Shown here: positions 4,703-16,725 of the stretch, one piece after another
Layout of the letters: each line of letters begins with the position of its first letter
Numbering within the stretch: position 1 is the stretch's first letter
Virus record (IMG/VR): IMGVR_UViG_3300008111_000288
Coordinates: 1-44,923 of that record
Strand: one strand, 5' to 3'
Origin: a virus
Length of the DNA: 44,923 nucleotides
The notes under the pieces: model-generated
The model's database searches: none
The model's input: only the letters and a program-made list of their open reading frames with translations
What the model was told of the DNA's origin: nothing
Position numbers and translations under genes: made by a program

Positions 4703-5446
4703 TTAGTTATATGTCTTTCTGTTCCAGTATTTGTTTTTGTAGTATCCTATCTTGCTTCTATCTGGAGAATCAGTTTTATTTCTAGACTGTAGGATTTTAC
4801 TAGTACCCATTTTCCAGCTTTCTCTTTTATATGGGAAAATTTGAGCAACTGGGGTGTTTTTTAAAATAACCCCTTCAAAATCTTCTTTTAAAAAGAATGG
4901 AATATTTCCTGGCGTAACCCAACCATCACTGTCTATTATCCCAGACGTAGTTGTAAAGGGTAGATCAAATCGATTAAATGGGTGTGTTACTAGAACAGAG
5001 TATCCTCTTGGAACCTTCCATCCCCATTTGCCTTGCCACACAAAATGATTTTTTAAATGACCTGCTGGCCTTGGTATTGTAGAGCCAGAATTTGATTTTC
5101 TTTCATTAATAAATCTACTTACAATTTGTGACTCTTCAATTTTATGATTGTGTTCTACTCTTTTTTTGTAAGGCTCAAAAACACCATCTTTTAAAACTCC
5201 ATCTTCTATATACAATACTCCATCTTTTTTAAAAACGTTTATATCGTCTATAGTAGTTACAACGTATCCGCTTAGCATTACGTCTAAAAATGGAACACAA
5301 GTTTTTAATCCTGCTGCGCCTTTATTGTCATAAGTTTCTCCATCTCTGTACCATTGAGGTACGTGTTCTTTTACTGGAGAAGGAGAAGTTAAATCTTGTT
5401 TTCCTAAAGGTACAACAAAATTAATTTTTTTCATGCGTCCTGTCAT
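4703..5446 (-). CDS. Conserved phage protein (DUF6065-like), function unknown
   Basis: 247 aa. I recognise the pattern of a family widespread in large phages: an N-terminal VPQWYRD segment, a PFLDVMLSGY stretch, then a PRGYSVLVTHPFNR segment and GIIDSDGW, ending in AQIFPYKRESWKM. The PGYS...GIIDSDG portion resembles the strand arrangement of dUTPase-like trimers, but the dUTPase catalytic motifs are not all present, so enzyme activity is not claimed. Start and upstream stop overlap as TAATG. The DUF number is from memory. Confidence 0.55.
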   Translation of the reverse strand: MTGRMKKINFVVPLGKQDLTSPSPVKEHVPQWYRDGETYDNKGAAGLKTCVPFLDVMLSGYVVTTIDDINVFKKDGVLYIEDGVLKDGVFEPYKKRVEHNHKIEESQIVSRFINERKSNSGSTIPRPAGHLKNHFVWQGKWGWKVPRGYSVLVTHPFNRFDLPFTTTSGIIDSDGWVTPGNIPFFLKEDFEGVILKNTPVAQIFPYKRESWKMGTSKILQSRNKTDSPDRSKIGYYKNKYWNRKTYN

Positions 5447-5730
5447 TAAGGCCTAGTAAAGTTGGTTCCGTCGTAGTTCCAGTCTGTTGTGATTGCTACT
5501 TGGGTTGTACCCTCTTCAGTCACTTCGTCTGGGAAAGTGATATCTGTGATATCTACAATTGTAGGCTGACTTAAAATTATTGCCCACATTCTTTCATCCG
5601 TAGCCAAGGTTTGAACAACTTTCCCATCAATAACATATGCTAACTTTTTTGTATTGTCAGCTGGTATTGGTTGAGAATTTTGTGCAGGTCTAGCAGGATT
5701 TGAAGCGATGTATTCTTCGTACTGTGTCAT
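5446..5730 (-). CDS. Small phage protein, possibly virion-associated
   Basis: 94 aa. It has an N-terminal Pro/Asn-rich stretch, then a beta-type domain containing KKLAYVIDGKVVQTLATDER and ending in WNYDGTNFTRP. The pattern 'VIDGKVVQTL...MWAIILSQPTIVDIT' recurs in short phage proteins beside tail genes; function is unknown. It overlaps both neighbours by start/stop fusion (ATGA upstream, TAATG downstream), so it is translationally coupled within the tail operon. Confidence 0.6.
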   Translation of the reverse strand: MTQYEEYIASNPARPAQNSQPIPADNTKKLAYVIDGKVVQTLATDERMWAIILSQPTIVDITDITFPDEVTEEGTTQVAITTDWNYDGTNFTRP

Positions 5731-5969
5731 ATTATTTCCTCCTCTTTTTTAATTTGTCCCCATTTTCCAATAGGGCAAGCTGCGTTTGGTAGCGTTACTT
5801 TTGCTGCCATTATGCAACCACATTTTTTGCATTGAGTTGTAGGCTTAATAAAAAACTCACAACCTTTACAAATATCTAGTCTTTCTTCTGCCGTAAGTTT
5901 TTCTACTCTTCCTATTTTTTTATTATATAGGTCCCACGGTCTGGCTGGTCTTTCAAAAGGATCGGTCAT
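5727..5969 (-). CDS. Small Cys-motif (zinc-binding type) phage protein
   Basis: 80 aa. Cysteines in CKGCEFF, then CKKCGC, and a later NAACPIGKW form a compact four- to six-Cys metal-binding pattern common in short phage proteins next to tail genes. No catalytic motif. ATGA overlap with the downstream gene. Likely a structural zinc ribbon or an Fe-S-like module; partner unknown. Confidence 0.6.
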   Translation of the reverse strand: MTDPFERPARPWDLYNKKIGRVEKLTAEERLDICKGCEFFIKPTTQCKKCGCIMAAKVTLPNAACPIGKWGQIKKEEEII

Positions 5970-5972
5970 TGT

Positions 5973-6350
5973 TTATAGTCCTTCTTCTATATGCTCAAGC
6001 TCAAAAAAATCTTTTAGCTCTGGATTAAACACCCAGTCTTTTCCTTCTTTTAAATTAATTTTTTTTCTTTGCTCATGATTAATTTCAACAAAGATAGGCC
6101 TTTTTTGAAGAAAGGATCCAAACTGTGGGTCTGTTGTCATAATATCCGCAACTACAAAATTTTCTGGGTCCAATATAGCTAGGTGCATTCCTAGTTTAGA
6201 TTGATCGGGAACAAATTCATGATCTTTGGGGACCCTATAACCTATTTTAATTTTGTGCCTAATAAAACTATGGATTTTATCTTTAGAGTAAACAGATATA
6301 TCCATAAAATAATTTTTTATGTTTTGTATAAAGCTAATTTTATTATTCAT
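5973..6350 (-). CDS. Hypothetical protein in the tail operon
   Basis: 125 aa, charged and soluble, with a basic N-terminal half and a beta-rich second half (FVVADIMTTDPQFGSFLQKR). No family recognised. The ATG overlaps the stop of the upstream Cys-rich gene (TAATG), so the two are likely co-translated. Confidence 0.55.
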   Translation of the reverse strand: MNNKISFIQNIKNYFMDISVYSKDKIHSFIRHKIKIGYRVPKDHEFVPDQSKLGMHLAILDPENFVVADIMTTDPQFGSFLQKRPIFVEINHEQRKKINLKEGKDWVFNPELKDFFELEHIEEGL

Positions 6351-7690
6351 TAGTTTACCCTAAATTCGTCTATGGTATATCCTTGGCTTGCATTTGAAGC
6401 TCTAGAAATTATACCATGCTCTTTGGACTTTTGTCCAGGGTGTGTCTGAGACAAAGTAGAGCCCACTTGTGAGGTTAAATTGGTATCTGAGTATGCCTGT
6501 GCTGTAATATTATTTCCGCTCAATGTGACTTTAATGCCCTGAATATTGGTTGTTAGATTAACTGTAGAATCTACAACAGTTTCTGTTCCTCCGACTTTTT
6601 TAACTAAATCTATTTTGTGATGATCTTGACATGAACAAGAGGCTGTAAAGTAGGTTGCACACCCGCAGCTAGCGTTGGGCCCATAAGTGTACCCGTTGCA
6701 GTACGTACATTGATTGTATTGAGCACAAACTGTGCATGACCCGTACCCGTTACAGTATGTGCATTGATTGTTTGCGGCACAAACCGTGCATGAGGTATAG
6801 CTTGTACAACATGTTTGCTGTGAGTATCCCGTACATGTCGAACAGGTGCCATAAGTAGAGCATTCAGTACATGTTCCTACAGCTTCGCATGTTTGTCCGC
6901 TGCATGTATAGTAATATGTACATGTTGCACAGGTATAATAAGAATCACAAAAAGTTTGTGTACACGCTGTCCATGAGGCACAGTCAACAATTCCTTTGTA
7001 AGCGCTATAATAATACGAAGTACAGCAGTATCCTTGATAGCTCCAATAACTTGCACAGCACTCGCCTGTGCTGTACGCTCCGCAGCATGAGTAGTAATAT
7101 GTGCTATAGGCAACACAACATGTTGTTTGAGTATAAGCAGTACAACAGCTTGTAAATCCATATGATGAGCATACGGTACATGTTCCGTATCCGTTGCAAC
7201 ATGATGTTGTGGTATATGATGCACATCCACAGCTTGCGTTTGCCCCGTAAGCATAAGAATTACAGCATGTTGTTTGAGTGTATGAAGCGCATCCACAACT
7301 GGAGTCTGCTCCGTAAGTTGTAGAACTACAATATGAACAGCTATTATATGCACCGCAATATGTGCAGGTTTGACATAAATTTGTTGTGTTTTTAGTTACC
7401 GACCAATAATTGCCAGAGTCTGTCACCCAAAAAGCTACTCCTACTCCTGAAGCCGTGCCTTTAGCTCTTAATACTGCATCAGTGGATGCAAACATCGTAG
7501 ATATTAAAGAACCTATTGAGGATGAGGTTCCTTTTCCACCTGAAACTCCCCAGCCAGAAACCACATGTCTCCATTTAGCAGAAGTTGCGCCAGCGTTTGT
7601 TAGGGTGGATCTAGAAAAGTTTTCAACTAGAGAAAGCAAGGCTTTTAGTCTAGAAGCAACTACATTTATTTTACGTTTTTTTCTTGACAT
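6350..7690 (-). CDS. Extremely Cys-rich tail-region protein, about 50 Cys in one insertion
   Basis: 446 aa from the ATG at 7690, chosen because it forms TAATG with the upstream stop; an upstream TTG at 7720 lacks support. Residues 1-105 and 355-446 look like two halves of one beta-sandwich of the LamG/concanavalin type (GVGVAFWVTDSGNYW ... YTIDEFRVN). Between them, residues about 106-354 hold about 50 cysteines as CC, CGC or CxxC pairs spaced by 5-11 Tyr/Ser/Thr/Asn residues. The pairing suggests dense disulphides or metal clusters on an external loop. Its place between fibre genes suggests an exposed receptor-binding or adhesive role (inference). Confidence 0.7.
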   Translation of the reverse strand: MSRKKRKINVVASRLKALLSLVENFSRSTLTNAGATSAKWRHVVSGWGVSGGKGTSSSIGSLISTMFASTDAVLRAKGTASGVGVAFWVTDSGNYWSVTKNTTNLCQTCTYCGAYNSCSYCSSTTYGADSSCGCASYTQTTCCNSYAYGANASCGCASYTTTSCCNGYGTCTVCSSYGFTSCCTAYTQTTCCVAYSTYYYSCCGAYSTGECCASYWSYQGYCCTSYYYSAYKGIVDCASWTACTQTFCDSYYTCATCTYYYTCSGQTCEAVGTCTECSTYGTCSTCTGYSQQTCCTSYTSCTVCAANNQCTYCNGYGSCTVCAQYNQCTYCNGYTYGPNASCGCATYFTASCSCQDHHKIDLVKKVGGTETVVDSTVNLTTNIQGIKVTLSGNNITAQAYSDTNLTSQVGSTLSQTHPGQKSKEHGIISRASNASQGYTIDEFRVN

Positions 7691-9114
7691 TATGCAGTTG
7701 TATCTCCAGTAACGTACCAAGAGTTGGTAGCATGTTTTTCAACAATAATTGAAGAATACTGAACTCTAGTTTTAAATCCGTTATCTGAAGCAACTGCTGT
7801 TGCTGGGCTGGTTACAGATACAGTTACTTGTCCAGCTCCCATTTGTCTAATTTCTAAATAAGAACCTACAGGAAACAAAACATCCCCAACATCGTTGGGT
7901 ATTGTTATTGTAATATTAGATCCTGAAGAGGTATGAATAACCTTGTATAAATCAGAAGCAGATAATGTTCTTGATGTTCCTGATTCGCTAATATATGATA
8001 TTTTTTCATCAGACTTTAAATCTAATGCTGTCTGTGTTGCTGTTGATATTGGTTTGTTTATATCAGATGTATTGTTTACGTTTGATAAGTCTGCTATTGC
8101 TTTTGCTGTAGCAGCTCTGTTTCCTACAAATATTGTTCCCGCCATTGATGGGTGATATTGACATGCGTAAAATAAGCTTGGCTCTGGAGCTAATTGATCT
8201 AGTTCTACTAAAATAGAACCATTATCTGTTCCGTTATTTGTTATTCCTGTTGAATAAACATTTGCAGAGCTATAAGCCCCAGAAACAGATTGTATCCAAA
8301 ATGGGTGTCCTGATGCATTAACTACTATTCTATATCTTTTACCCTTTTCAAAATGCAAAGTTCCATTAGAAATTCCGTTTACCATATATGCGCCCATGCC
8401 TGCGTTTGTTATATAGTAATCTATTGAAGCTTCTGTTTTTGGAACATATGTTGCAGTGGCTGTAGATGTTTCTAGCTTTGTTCCTAGCGCCGTAGTAATA
8501 GTTGCTGCATATGAAGCATCATCATTTATTGCTTGAGCTAACTCATTTAAAGTATCTAATGTTGTCGGTGCAGAATCAATAAGGTTTCCTATTGCCGTTG
8601 ATATTGCAGTATTTCTATCGGTAACTTCTTGAGTAATTGCAGCAGTAAGCTCTGAGTCTCTTGTGATTGATGGATTTAGCTGATTATCTGGAACATACCC
8701 GTTTGAATCAAGTTCTGCAACTCCATCTACTGTTCCCATTAAAGATAATGGTATGTATCCGCTTGTTACTGTATTAGAAAGTCCGCTAACAGCTGTATCT
8801 ACGTAAGATTTATCTGCAATTACAGAAGTATCTACGGATATGGAGTAAACTCCAGTCACATCGTTATATGATTTTGATATTCCGTTTCCGTTTGAAATAG
8901 TATCGTTTAAATAGTCTTGTACTAGCTCTAATAATTCTGCGGGAGTAATATTTAAATACGGAAGAACATTCCATCTTGAAGTAGCATCATTTGCGATACC
9001 AACTTTAAACTTTTTATTTGTAAAGTCATAACCAATTTCTCCTGATTGCAAAATAGGATTGTTTGCCAACCAGTTTGCAGCAGTATCTCTTCTTATCTGT
9101 ATTCTAATTGCCAT
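7690..9114 (-). CDS. Tail fibre protein with embedded cupredoxin-like domain
   Basis: 474 aa. The N-terminus (IQIRRDTAANWLANNPIL ... GEIGYD) is a classic phage fibre head module. Residues about 64-215 carry the repeat unit and the YVDTAVSGLSNT block shared with the fibre at 1802-4681. Residues about 250-332 look like a type 1 copper (plastocyanin-like) fold with a complete ligand set: His270 (GHPFW), Cys318, His321 and Met324 in FYACQYHPSMAGTIFV. The C-terminus is another beta domain. TAATG overlaps link it to both neighbours. Copper binding is inferred from ligand spacing only. Confidence 0.75.
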   Translation of the reverse strand: MAIRIQIRRDTAANWLANNPILQSGEIGYDFTNKKFKVGIANDATSRWNVLPYLNITPAELLELVQDYLNDTISNGNGISKSYNDVTGVYSISVDTSVIADKSYVDTAVSGLSNTVTSGYIPLSLMGTVDGVAELDSNGYVPDNQLNPSITRDSELTAAITQEVTDRNTAISTAIGNLIDSAPTTLDTLNELAQAINDDASYAATITTALGTKLETSTATATYVPKTEASIDYYITNAGMGAYMVNGISNGTLHFEKGKRYRIVVNASGHPFWIQSVSGAYSSANVYSTGITNNGTDNGSILVELDQLAPEPSLFYACQYHPSMAGTIFVGNRAATAKAIADLSNVNNTSDINKPISTATQTALDLKSDEKISYISESGTSRTLSASDLYKVIHTSSGSNITITIPNDVGDVLFPVGSYLEIRQMGAGQVTVSVTSPATAVASDNGFKTRVQYSSIIVEKHATNSWYVTGDTTA

Positions 9115-11793: not shown

Positions 11794-12468
11794 TTAGGCA
11801 GAAATGTCTACAATCTCGCAATTTCCGTCTGATGTACAGGCAAGAGTAGAGTTTGTGGAAGTTCCGTCTTCTGTCTCGTAAAAAGACAAGTCTTCCCAAC
11901 GAATATTCTTGGGCATCTTTGAAAGAAGATCTTCGTACTCTTCTTTTGTTACTTCCTGATATGGTGCTTGCTTGTAGGAATGGTCTGAATGCGGAAGGAA
12001 TGAAATTCCAGATACTTCGTCAAAATGTTTATATACCCATGCTCCAACTTCCATCCACTCATCTTCTTTAACAGACACAGTAATAGATGGCTTATGCTCA
12101 CACCATGCACGTTGATAAACTAGCCAAATGTTTAGATGATCTAACGCAGTTAAATCATTTCTAACAATTGCTCCGTTTGGCGCCTTTACTGGAAATGAAA
12201 AAACATATGTATCATTTGGCTTCATAACATCATCTTCTACTGGAATTCCTACTTCCTTTAGAAATGTAGAGATTGGATCTCCCTTAGAGCCACGAACTGT
12301 GCGAATGTAATATGGTGAATGCCAAGGATGCATTCCTGAAGATACCCCGACCAATTGAGACACTGTACCAGAAGGCTTTACGCATGTAATAGCTGCAGAC
12401 TCAGGAATCCCAATTGTCCTGTTAATGAAACTCCAAGCAATCTTTCTTCTTCTGTGTTGTCTTTCCAA
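11794..12468 (-). pseudogene. nrdJ: Class II ribonucleotide reductase, C-terminal part (out of frame)
   Basis: Homology to adenosylcobalamin-dependent RNR resumes at GIPESAAITCVKPSGT (about 12411) and continues to the end, closing with LACTSDGNCEIV, the usual redox-shuttle Cys pair at the C-terminus. The upstream 19 codons (Arg/Lys-rich) are the wrong frame of the N-terminal part. No ribosome site precedes it, so it is probably not expressed alone. With the N-terminal part it totals about 607 residues, short of the usual 640-740 for this family. Confidence 0.7.
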
Positions 12469-13619
12469 ATTTTACGAAGGTATTTAAAGTCTGTTAGCGT
12501 TGATTGCCAAGTTCCAAGAATTGTTGCAAGACGGACTTTATTTGCAACATCTTCATTTGTATCTTTTTCACGTAATACGACTTCTGAAAGATTACAAAAC
12601 TGGTAAGGACGTAAGATAATTTCTGAGCATGGGTTAGTTCCATAGTGAATATCTGGATCTCTTCTTCCATACTTGGCTGCTTGGGCTTGAGCTGCGGCCA
12701 CATTGTATATACCTCGTTCTCCTGACTTTGAATCATAAAGATTCTTCCATTCTGCTATAAACTGCTCCATCTCTGGTTTGCGTGAATATGCAACAGAGTT
12801 ATTTGAAAGTGCACGTTGAGTATTGTTCTCCCACCAATTACCTGATTTGGCTGCAGCCATTTCAATATCATTAATATTAGAAAGAGAAATCATTGCTGAG
12901 CGTCTTACTCCGCCAACTACTACAACTTCTCCAATCTTACACATAATGTCATGTGCTTCAATTGGCTTAAGTTGACGGCCTGCCGCATTCTTAAATTTTG
13001 CAATAGTAAAATCAAATAGGTTTATAAGTGGCTGTGGACCAGATGATCTTCCTCCCATAGTCTTAAGACGAGCACCTGCTGGTCTAACTTTAGAAACATC
13101 AATTGCTGGAACTTGTCCTGTCCACAAAAGAGCTAGCAGTTCACGATATGCTTTGGCCCAACCTTGTTTTGAATCTTCTACAACAATTACTGTTGTTGTT
13201 TTTTCAAACGTCTCTGGGACGGAAGGAAGTTTGTTAACATACTTGTATTCTACAGAAAACCCAACACCTGTTCCACACATAAGGATATACATAGTTTCAT
13301 CAAATGAGCGTGGTGAATCTACTGGAACAAATGAGCAGTTATATCCTGCAACATTGTCTCTATCTAATGCGGCACCTGCAGTCATTACAGATCTCATAGA
13401 AGGCATTACGTTACGATTAAATACAGCATCTTTTAATTCTGTGACTAGGCTTTCTGATGGAACATAGTTATTGTTTACCTTTAGATGATCTAACATAAAG
13501 TTAAAATATCTGTCTACTGTTTCGCCCCAAGTTTCACGGCGTCCTTCTTCTGGAATCCATCTCGCATAACGAGACAGAGCAATGAAATTTTCATATGGGT
13601 TTGCAATAGTTTTTGACAT
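12378..13619 (-). pseudogene. nrdJ: Class II (B12-dependent) ribonucleotide reductase, N-terminal part, frameshifted
   Basis: Reduces ribonucleoside triphosphates to deoxy forms. Visible signatures of the monomeric RTPR type: RWIPEEGRRETWGETVDRY (about 20-38), GYNCSFV with Cys95, MCGTGVGFSVE, and NPCSEIILRPYQFCNL with the thiyl Cys331 and Glu333. Homology runs to LLGVSLTGQ (residue 402). The next expected helix (roughly 25-35 aa before GIPESAAITC) is absent and the frame shifts at about 12411-12414. The piece therefore reads 11 unrelated residues and stops. Either a real inactivating deletion or an assembly/sequence collapse. ATG at 13619 behind AAAGGTG. Confidence 0.8.
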
Positions 13620-13709: not shown

Positions 13710-14696
13710 TTATTTAAATTTTTTAAAAATTGGATCAAAGCTATTCTTAGTCAACTGGATCCAATTATATTCATTATGTATTTCTTCAGATTGTTTATAG
13801 TAGTATCCAGAATATGCTTTAAAATTTTGAGTAACATCTCTCATAAGCTCAAGTAGGTGTTGATAGTTTGGTTCATATACTTTACCAGGAAGATTAAAAA
13901 ATTTTGAATCTTGTAAAGTTGATTTTAAAACAAGTGGTCCTAAAAATTTAAAGTAATGTGCCCATCCACCAGTACATATAGTTGGCATACCAGTAGCTAA
14001 GGCTTGAAGCGGTATAAATCCAAATCCCTCACCGTAACTTGGATAAACTAAAACATCGTGATCGTGATACAACCTAACCAATTCTTCTTCAGACATGTCT
14101 TCGGTAATAACCTTTATATTATTATACATTTTGTCTGGCAAACCAATTATTTCTTTATCTATAAAATTATTAAAAACTCTTGTTGTGTTTTCTCTATATG
14201 CTTTTATAGTTAAACTATACTTTGGGTTATTACCAAATAAAGAAACAAATGCATTCACAACCATCTGTCCCGCTTTTCTAGGAGCTGGCTCGCCAACATG
14301 CAAAAATTTAATAACATCAGACTCTTGTCTTTTTTTAGGCTTCCATGCTGGACTAATTCCATGAGGATAAACTTTTACATTTTTCATTCCATTATCTTCA
14401 AAAACATTTGCACACCAATCTGATGTAGCCCAGACTTCATCACAATAATTTACCATTGGAAACCATGTTTTTGGAACTACTGTAGATTCCCAAGGTGTAT
14501 AACTAATTTGGTATTGATTTTTATGAAGTTTATGTTGAAATGGCTGTGCAAAATTTAATTGTACTGGAGCACGGTAATCTTGAAATGGTGTTTGATGCCC
14601 TAATTTTTGCAAAGATTGTATAATATTCCAGCTAGCATAGCCATAACCAGTATTTTGAGTTAAGTTAATTTTAGGCGTAGAGAATGATATTTGCAT
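13710..14696 (-). CDS. GT4-type glycosyltransferase
   Basis: 328 aa. N-terminal Gly-rich loop (NTGYGYASWNII, about 14-25), then LHVGEPAPRKAG (about 130-141), and the EX7E-type donor site YGEGFGFIPLQALATGMP (about 220-237). These mark the GT-B fold, GT4 family of retaining glycosyltransferases. It probably transfers a sugar from a nucleotide donor onto phage DNA, virion protein or host surface glycan; the acceptor is unknown. It lies upstream of the RNR on the minus strand, divergent from the transglycosylase. No good ribosome site before the ATG. Confidence 0.8.
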   Translation of the reverse strand: MQISFSTPKINLTQNTGYGYASWNIIQSLQKLGHQTPFQDYRAPVQLNFAQPFQHKLHKNQYQISYTPWESTVVPKTWFPMVNYCDEVWATSDWCANVFEDNGMKNVKVYPHGISPAWKPKKRQESDVIKFLHVGEPAPRKAGQMVVNAFVSLFGNNPKYSLTIKAYRENTTRVFNNFIDKEIIGLPDKMYNNIKVITEDMSEEELVRLYHDHDVLVYPSYGEGFGFIPLQALATGMPTICTGGWAHYFKFLGPLVLKSTLQDSKFFNLPGKVYEPNYQHLLELMRDVTQNFKAYSGYYYKQSEEIHNEYNWIQLTKNSFDPIFKKFK

Positions 14697-15337: not shown

Positions 15338-15544
15338 ATGCAGATACAATACGTATCTAAATATATAGCCTTATCAAGAGAAGGCCTTGTTCCAAGACTC
15401 GATTGTCCTCTGGATCAGGGCCTTCTTATGTCTAATGAAGACTTAAATGGTAATATATACTTATACTGCTTATCATGTTCTTATAAAAAAAATATAGGCT
15501 TAGATTTTTATGATAAGCTCTGCAAACAGATAAAGGGGTTGTAG
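15338..15544 (+). CDS. Small zinc-ribbon-like phage protein
   Basis: 68 aa. Two Cys groups, DCPLDQGLL and YCLSCSYK, fit a knuckle-type zinc site. Similar short proteins accompany glycosyltransferase genes in actinophages, as I recall. The stop overlaps the GTG start of the next gene (TAGTG). Confidence 0.6.
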   Translation: MQIQYVSKYIALSREGLVPRLDCPLDQGLLMSNEDLNGNIYLYCLSCSYKKNIGLDFYDKLCKQIKGL

Positions 15545-16725
15545 TGGCTGCTGGTCCAATTAAAGGAATAACAATAACTCATCCAGAAGTAAGAGAAGCC
15601 TTTTTTGAAGAAATAAGATCTTTAGAGCAAGTTGAGGATGTTAAGCCTTACGGAGAATTTGGGTTTTATGTAAAAGTAAAAAATCCTGTAATAAATTATA
15701 GACATCAGTTTAATGGAATAATGATTCCTATGGTTGGTGAATTTAATAATAAGCAAGAAGAACATTACGATGGAGCTATACTTACAATACCAATTACAAA
15801 AAAATATTTTCACGACATGCTTGAAATTATGCCAATAATTCTTACGCTAAAAGAAAATAATGAAAAATTTAAAGTTGTTTTTAATGCCAGAGAAAGCATG
15901 ATTACTGAAGATAAAATATATAAAACGTTTTTAATGACTGCTCAACAGGCGAAAGACATAAACACTGAACCTTTGAGATATTGGCTTGATTTTTTAAATT
16001 TTTATGAAATTGATTATGAGTGTACAGACTCTAAGTTTAATAAAGTAATATCTGCAGACTCAGCTTATGTATTTTATTATACCGACATGGGATTTGAGCC
16101 TGCTAACGACAGTGAGACATATACAACTAACTACATTCATTGGTCAAACAATACTGGGCTATCTGGAGTAAAAAGAGTCTTTCCTACAAGACACGAAAGC
16201 TTAGCCTTTAAGCTATCTTATCAAATCATTACATTTGGACAACCTACTTTACTTCTGTACTCAGATTCTTTTGAGATTTTAAAAAGAAATTTTGCCGAAA
16301 GCGGTCTTATAAGTAGAACCATTCCTGGAAAAAAAATATTCATAGCTAGAAACACTAAACTCTATAGCGATAGAGCAATTTCAAATACAGATAAATTAAA
16401 TGACTATATGGAATCTAAAGGATTTGAAATTTTTTATAATGAAGACATTAATATGATGGATCAGATTAAATCTGTTACTGAAGCTGAGTGTATTGTTGGA
16501 ATAGTTGGAAGTAACTTTTTAAATGCTATGTATGCAGATAAAGGAACCCAACAAATTATATTTTATCCAGACAAAAGTCAGGACTGGTTAATATATTCAA
16601 ACCAGTCTGCTAGATGGGACCATGAGGTTAAAAATATTTATACAGATAATAACCCTGAAAGCATGATAGAGTATTTAGAAACAACTGAAAGCCCTATAAT
16701 TAAGAAATGGTTTCAAAATGTGTGA
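15544..16725 (+). CDS. GT61-like glycosyltransferase
   Basis: 393 aa, GTG start at 15544 with AAAGGGG upstream and 1-nt overlap with the preceding stop. The C-terminal half carries the GT61/DUF563 signature: KIFIARNTKLYSDRAISN, then a Glu-rich helix, then AECIVGIVGSNFLNAMYA and GTQQIIFYP. The N-terminal half is unassigned. Likely sugar transfer to a surface or virion acceptor. It and the GT4 gene at 13.7 kb could form a glycan-modification pair. Confidence 0.65.
   Translation: MAAGPIKGITITHPEVREAFFEEIRSLEQVEDVKPYGEFGFYVKVKNPVINYRHQFNGIMIPMVGEFNNKQEEHYDGAILTIPITKKYFHDMLEIMPIILTLKENNEKFKVVFNARESMITEDKIYKTFLMTAQQAKDINTEPLRYWLDFLNFYEIDYECTDSKFNKVISADSAYVFYYTDMGFEPANDSETYTTNYIHWSNNTGLSGVKRVFPTRHESLAFKLSYQIITFGQPTLLLYSDSFEILKRNFAESGLISRTIPGKKIFIARNTKLYSDRAISNTDKLNDYMESKGFEIFYNEDINMMDQIKSVTEAECIVGIVGSNFLNAMYADKGTQQIIFYPDKSQDWLIYSNQSARWDHEVKNIYTDNNPESMIEYLETTESPIIKKWFQNV

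Follow-up and report, generated by a model that had tools for sequence, protein, structure and literature searches.

Disulfide bonds in phage tails have a precedent in Agrobacterium phage Milano, in which the tail is locked by the many disulfides of its virion proteins (PMC10811340). These are scattered inter-subunit bonds in the sheath, tube and baseplate, in proteins with about 2 percent Cys, and no Cys-rich hairpin is described for this phage (PMC10811340). Glycan binding by a phage fibre is described for mycobacteriophage Douge, in which the N-terminal and tip domains of the central fibre protein gp20 bind mycobacterial glycans (PMC13033339). Here we analyse a tail-region gene on a 44,923-nucleotide stretch of viral DNA (IMG/VR record IMGVR_UViG_3300008111_000288; the whole stretch is referred to as the window) and propose that its product is likely to be a lectin-like tail-associated protein into which a giant antiparallel hairpin, zipped by cross-arm disulfides, has been inserted. 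Literature searches found no description of such a Cys hairpin architecture, and we know of no family or described architecture with this design; a tail adhesin is a function of a known kind.

Table 1. Features of the putative hairpin gene and its surroundings in the window
Feature	Position	Strand	Basis or remark
Cys-rich hairpin protein gene, 446 aa	6353..7690	(-)	Translation, homologues, purifying selection
Predicted sandwich, N-terminal half (residues 1-105, without Cys)	7376..7690	(-)	Alignment (WVTDSGNY motif) and AF2 of L017
Putative hairpin N arm (residues 106-223; 25 Cys, chiefly CC/CGC)	7022..7375	(-)	
Putative hairpin tip TSYYYSAYKGIVD (residues 224-236)	6983..7021	(-)	Cys mirror centre at residue 230
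Putative hairpin C arm (residues 237-354; 25 Cys, as C-x5-C and CxxC)	6629..6982	(-)	
Predicted sandwich, C-terminal half (residues 355-446, without Cys)	6353..6628	(-)	Alignment (QGYTIDEF motif) and AF2 of L017
Tail-fibre-like gene, upstream	7690..9114	(-)	Pfam Mtd_N 2.2e-11; PHROG tail families
125-aa gene, downstream	5973..6350	(-)	One-base overlap; conserved in close relatives
DUF6171 small Cys4 protein	5727..5969	(-)	Pfam; near hairpin gene in 27/31 family loci
phrog_7084 protein	4703..5446	(-)	PHROG 2e-29; near hairpin gene in 26/31 family loci

The gene is translated from an ATG at 7688-7690 to a stop codon at 6350-6352 on the minus strand (Table 1), and all 50 Cys of its product fall within residues 106-354, where they make up 20 percent of a 249-residue loop. 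The first-pass annotation of this DNA had claimed about 50 Cys in about 250 residues, a count that our translation confirms and coordinates that were correct, and the CC, CGC and CxxC pairs it listed are present as eight CC, three CGC and many CxxC. The remainder of the loop is rich in the Thr, Tyr and Ser that it had named as spacers (44, 38 and 33 residues, respectively), followed by Ala (22) and Gly (21), and is almost devoid of charge, with six acidic residues and a sole Lys that lies in the tip segment (residues 224-236). Judged by its substitutions the loop is coding sequence under purifying selection, with dN/dS of about 0.1-0.3 in most close pairs and 0.6-0.7 only in comparisons with relative L044, which is where modules have been swapped (see below). 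A low-complexity or frameshift artefact was rejected, and an artefact of the reading frame is ruled out by 12 full-length relatives that keep both frame and layout.

The window protein has no match in Pfam, PHROG, NCBIfam, PDB sequences, INPHARED or the GTDB genomes, and tblastn searches of INPHARED with the window, L016, L050 and L067 proteins likewise returned none, while for the L053 protein the matches, to two cultured phages, were confined to an unrelated 43-residue N-terminal stretch. The earlier statement that no known phage family has this layout is thus borne out for profiles, cultured phages and bacterial genomes. Scanning IMG/VR, a search among metagenomic phages that had been suggested at the same time, gave 60 distinct related complete loops of 10-50 Cys each and hence a large family, which was gathered in stages from 12 close full-length relatives through a distant branch and 50 loci to a held-out set. 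All complete members conserve the flanking halves, and the Cys-rich loop, positioned between WVTDSGNW and the C-terminal half, diverges strongly in sequence and length. In BFVD, A0A6J7WYT9 and five other proteins of uncultured Caudovirales (Foldseek E 8.5e-24 to 2.6e-13, 15-31 percent identity) are probably family members deposited unannotated; no function or layout is described for them. The family occurs on IMG/VR contigs of many metagenomes, and without these it would be missed, since none of the cultured-phage and bacterial-genome collections searched contains it.

AlphaFold2, run with 34 sequences, predicts the flanks of relative L017, whose loop holds 22 Cys, as a single beta-sandwich (pLDDT >90) that the loop splits between strands 110-114 and 238-242. 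This supports the part of the first-pass annotation that had the loop lying between two halves of one fold, predicted here as lectin-like; the LamG assignment itself found no profile match, as LamG and concanavalin A-like lectin profiles gave no sequence match in Pfam, NCBIfam or PHROG. A Foldseek search with the L017 sandwich returned weak matches to legume lectins, rotavirus VP8* and Douge gp20 (E 1e-3 to 0.2, low TM). Douge gp20 (PDB 8ZDP) was the top match (E 1.3e-3, TM 0.38), yet shares 8 percent identity, and no Cys hairpin is reported and disulfides go unmentioned for it (PMC13033339). Based on the predicted fold of L017, the Foldseek matches and the glycan-binding fibre domains of Douge, "lectin-like sandwich" is a fair description of the model.

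The number of Cys is even in all 60 distinct complete loops (range 10-50), and the Cys spacings of the N-terminal side mirror those of the C-terminal side about a central turn, with r up to 0.99. When the k-th Cys from the tip on one arm is paired with the k-th on the other, the gap vectors, read outward from the tip, correlate with r = 0.98-0.99 in L051, L067, L071, L082, L088, L098 and L135. In L048, whose loop has 24 Cys, both arms place their Cys at eight identical irregular levels (7.5, 12.5, 20.5, 28.5, 38.5, 48.5, 58.5 and 68.5), and in L067 the gaps are 7, 18, 7, 34, 11, 12 on one arm versus 7, 18, 8, 35, 12, 11 on the other. Permutation tests of the nested gaps combine to a Fisher value of 4e-20 over 29 clusters, parallel pairing of the arms is not favoured in most families, and when an arm is compared with the partners of other families its own partner ranks first of 22 in 16 of 22 cases. 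The middle of the loop is short and turn-like, and of the 33 Lys in the representative loops 19 fall there, compared with 2.75 expected.

These features also bear on the suggestion in the first-pass annotation that the loop could be a metal-binding array. Whether metallothionein-like or built of CxxC zinc or iron-sulphur rows, such an array would be supported by the frequent CC, CxC and CxxC motifs of the loop. Metal sites neither need nor predict symmetric arms, however, and the Cys counts, though even, are often not multiples of four (for example 10, 14, 18, 22, 26, 42 and 50). In addition, His, Asp and Glu are scarce in the loop while Tyr accounts for 15 percent of it (38/249); metallothioneins are poor in aromatics. 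With the Cys counts, the few His, Asp and Glu, the abundant Tyr and the matched arms all disfavouring it, we consider a metal array very improbable.

The strength of the mirror symmetry depends on how it is tested. The earliest test, which scored exact mirror matches at all centres, was weak (p 0.13 for the window and 0.07 with the centre restricted), and the Fisher value of 4e-20 is inflated because a base clamp (CNCxxC ... CNCQTC) is shared among families. Under a strict control, in which the three outermost gaps are dropped, permutation is within arms only and each superfamily contributes one cluster, the Fisher value is 1.4e-6. The mirror-arm prediction was recorded ahead of further IMG/VR scans, and the resulting held-out set provided nine new clusters, all with even Cys, giving a Fisher value of 4e-8 and, under the strictest control, 1.5e-4; since the families are related to one another, all of these P values are guides and not exact probabilities. 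The placement of Lys at the tip held partly in this set, as L088 and L098 have Arg and compact loops have Lys beside the tip Cys. Nesting was not significant in the small loops L056, L061 and L062, nor individually in the compact loops L112, L116 and L126. These compact loops, together with L128, comprise 76-81 residues with 16-20 Cys at the same position in the sandwich, and given their lack of individual significance they may be globular knobs, a different form from the hairpins. Loops L067, L069 and L071 carry long Cys-poor stretches with NYGxxSYS-type repeats on both arms, as if non-covalent rungs had replaced disulfide rungs there.

The two arms also change together. L041 and L044, which come from different samples, show about 95-100 percent DNA identity across the gene and its 900 bases of upstream sequence, save for two blocks, and these lie at the same levels of opposite arms with their module types exchanged, such that SPSYP faces GGYYYA in one and GGYYYA faces SPSYP in the other. 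L047 has one extra CxC per arm at the same level, and in L048 the two module types trade arms at a single level. In two families the mean substitution per level matches between arms (r=0.81 and 0.89; p=0.005 and 0.001), a match that is lost when one arm is reversed, and the most variable levels lie mid-ladder while tip and base are more conserved. The exchange of sequence within the gene can also be seen in L019 and L021 (gene 5001-6035), whose loops are 99 percent identical with a dS of 0.036 compared with 0.40 in the flanks and whose surrounding genes are near-identical again, pointing to mosaic exchange within the gene. The paralogous genes L051 and L052, near each other on contig IMGVR_UViG_3300046787_000129, are more alike in their loops (73 percent) than in their sandwich halves (64 percent).

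An inverted duplication of the DNA was considered and rejected, as it would not result in mirrored protein spacing, and tandem duplication gives parallel rather than mirror symmetry. If the loop were instead a chain of local disulfide units, either stacked as in granulin or wound into a beta-solenoid whose coils each hold one disulfide, like beetle antifreeze protein, the short periods of 7, 9 or 11 residues, each containing two Cys, would be explained, and the CC-x7-CC and C-x5-C spacings are indeed reminiscent of such folds. Local units, however, predict neither mirrored arms nor matched indels, opposite-arm swaps or level-matched substitution rates, and searching 34 aligned members against Pfam at E 1 gave no match to the granulin, EGF-like or antifreeze families, making this a rather improbable explanation. 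As read from these sequences, the covariation of the arms follows from a hairpin and not from metal sites, tandem repeats or local disulfide domains. The even Cys counts and the mirrored, co-varying spacings strongly favour the disulphide-locked structure that had been one of the first-pass suggestions; its "giant Cys-rich loop" does lie inside the sandwich, but the evidence points to a hairpin of two arms.

The window belongs to a subclass with 50 or 40 Cys per member in which the plain nested-gap test fails (p=1.0), because CC on one arm stands opposite C-x5-C on the other. This failure led us to adopt, post hoc, a two-ladder reading in which alternate Cys are split into two ladders. The first ladder of the window then has eight levels equidistant from the tip on both arms (7, 18, 27, 38, 47, 56, 65 and 74; P=0.0006 versus unit shuffles), and the second has a stagger that is constant at +5 over seven levels both in the window and in L009. 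In L009 (P=0.0004) the 9- and 11-residue units follow a different order from the window, and do so alike on both arms. L010 and L011 have CC on the other arm compared with the window and a stagger of +5 to +6, and differ from each other by 11 versus 12 residues at a matching level on both arms. The tip divides the Cys 25/25, 20/20, 21/21 and 16/16, members of the subclass with 40 Cys have five fewer on each arm, and in L002, L003 and L008 an otherwise identical run is broken by one residue near the tip. The two-ladder evidence from this subclass carries less weight than that from the simple families. At low confidence, AlphaFold2 gives the window loop two long strands (pLDDT 40-58) that turn at 230-233, beside the symmetry centre at 230; across the window and L017 loop pLDDT is 23-58, too low to establish a strand, and the L017 loop is given no strands. 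Rung spacings are often odd (7, 9, 11), which sits badly with a flat ribbon whose disulfides occupy non-hydrogen-bonded sites only.

It is also conceivable that the two-arm hairpin is right and that some rungs, namely those of the slanted second ladder with its 5-residue stagger, join subunits into an interlocked, disulfide-linked multi-stranded spike. Phage fibres are often trimers, and the extra Cys keep their stagger of +5 in the window and L009 and of +5 to +6 in L010 and L011 despite the change of the CC arm. Against this, nested pairing within one chain covers all Cys without a second chain, and such extra Cys are absent from the single-ladder families; we regard inter-subunit rungs as unlikely.

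Even counts, mirrored arms and covariation by level are read directly from the sequences, as is the tail-gene context, and together they suggest the following arrangement for the intrachain hairpin. A concanavalin A-type lectin-like sandwich would be interrupted at the turn of one of its own hairpins, from which the chain would run outward for about 124 residues, turn at the YKG tip and return over about 124 residues. On chemical grounds, Cys of the outgoing arm would bond Cys of the returning arm in nested order, forming a disulfide ladder of up to 25 rungs. For the window the bonds would be 223-237, 222-243, 212-248, 211-254, 203-257 and onward to 106-354, and in its subclass the opposition of CC and C-x5-C would make straight and slanted rungs alternate. 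Upon release into an oxidising environment the ladder would lock as a stiff, protease-resistant rod standing off the tail, a shape suggested by the geometry and for which about 40 nm is an upper bound on length, calculated with both 124-residue arms fully extended. Virions assemble in the reducing cytoplasm, which counts against a disulfide ladder.

The gene context would fit a role in adhesion. The start of the hairpin gene overlaps the stop of the upstream gene by one base (TAATG), and this overlap with the Mtd_N tail-fibre-like gene together with that with the downstream gene places the hairpin gene in a tail operon; the Mtd_N domain itself is in the upstream gene and not in the hairpin gene. 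Across 31 divergent loci the phrog_7084 and DUF6171 genes are close downstream in 26 and 27, respectively, and a tail-fibre gene is upstream in most. DUF6171 is not a specific helper of the hairpin, as DUF6171 genes are present in tail modules of cultured cyanophages that lack it, and in cultured phages with DUF6171 or phrog_7084 genes no Cys hairpin was found near either. Among the about 30 window ORFs scanned, in a record that may be incomplete, no reverse transcriptase indicative of a DGR was found.

In this setting the Tyr/Ser/Thr/Asn-rich faces of the rod, variable mid-ladder and exchangeable between phages, could mediate adsorption to host surface structures, with the sandwich serving as base of the rod and possibly as glycan binder. 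Receptor binding is plausible from gene position, fold and variability, and a role as rigid, exchangeable adhesin is likely. If the hairpin were right and its role mechanical or protective instead, stiffening or shielding the tail fibre, then the low charge and dense disulfides would suit stability and the lesser conservation of the hairpin middle relative to tip and base would fit as well. The hypervariability mid-ladder and the exchange of loop blocks (L019/L021) fit recognition better, as do the lectin-like base and the Mtd_N tail gene alongside, and we regard a mechanical or protective role as possible but somewhat doubtful.

From its gene content, an actinobacterial host can be guessed: Streptomyces phages supply the closest relatives of both the B12-dependent ribonucleotide reductase (67-69 percent) and a DUF932 protein (50 percent), and those of the structural protein at 3-1130 are in cyanophages. 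The cultured relatives found for the phrog_7084 protein are mostly haloarchaeal tailed viruses (HRTV, HJTV) at about 30 percent identity. The ribonucleotide reductase (11794-13619, minus strand) is split into two ORFs in different frames that overlap at 12378-12468; in L003 it is one uninterrupted ORF, and the split in the window may be a sequencing error or a real interruption. Two glycosyltransferase genes (phrog_2170 and Pfam Glyco_transf_61, at 13710-14696 on the minus and 15544-16725 on the plus strand) adjoin the tail region.

Whether these proteins form a new architecture class, with zipped hairpins of up to 25 rungs in lectin-like tail domains whose arms co-evolve rung by rung and swap modules to give a covalently locked lance for host binding that can evolve and may be interlocked between subunits, we consider evenly balanced. 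If true, phages would encode a hairpin that is zipped covalently and exceeds by far the length of every cystine ladder we know, providing a new route to a thin, stiff, protease-resistant adhesin and a natural rule for the design of long disulfide ladders, and it would be a puzzle how 25 correct disulfides are made in a particle assembled in a reducing cytoplasm.

Finally, two known systems resemble the proposed hairpin in their working only. Theta-defensin-like cystine ladders likewise link a pair of antiparallel strands through a row of parallel disulfides that cross from strand to strand, but there the ladder is an 18-residue cyclic peptide with three rungs, whereas the phage hairpin would have about 250 residues and up to 25 rungs. 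The phage loop has no head-to-tail cyclic backbone, its 249 residues lying inside a 446-aa protein, and as a tail-protein insertion it has no detectable homology to such ladders. The ultralong CDR-H3 of bovine antibodies also extends a beta-sandwich hairpin by a very long insertion, combining a two-stranded beta-ribbon with a diversified disulfide-rich part (PMC8602281). However, it comprises 50-70 residues arranged as a stalk with a compact Cys knob (PMC8602281), while the phage hairpin would be laddered throughout.
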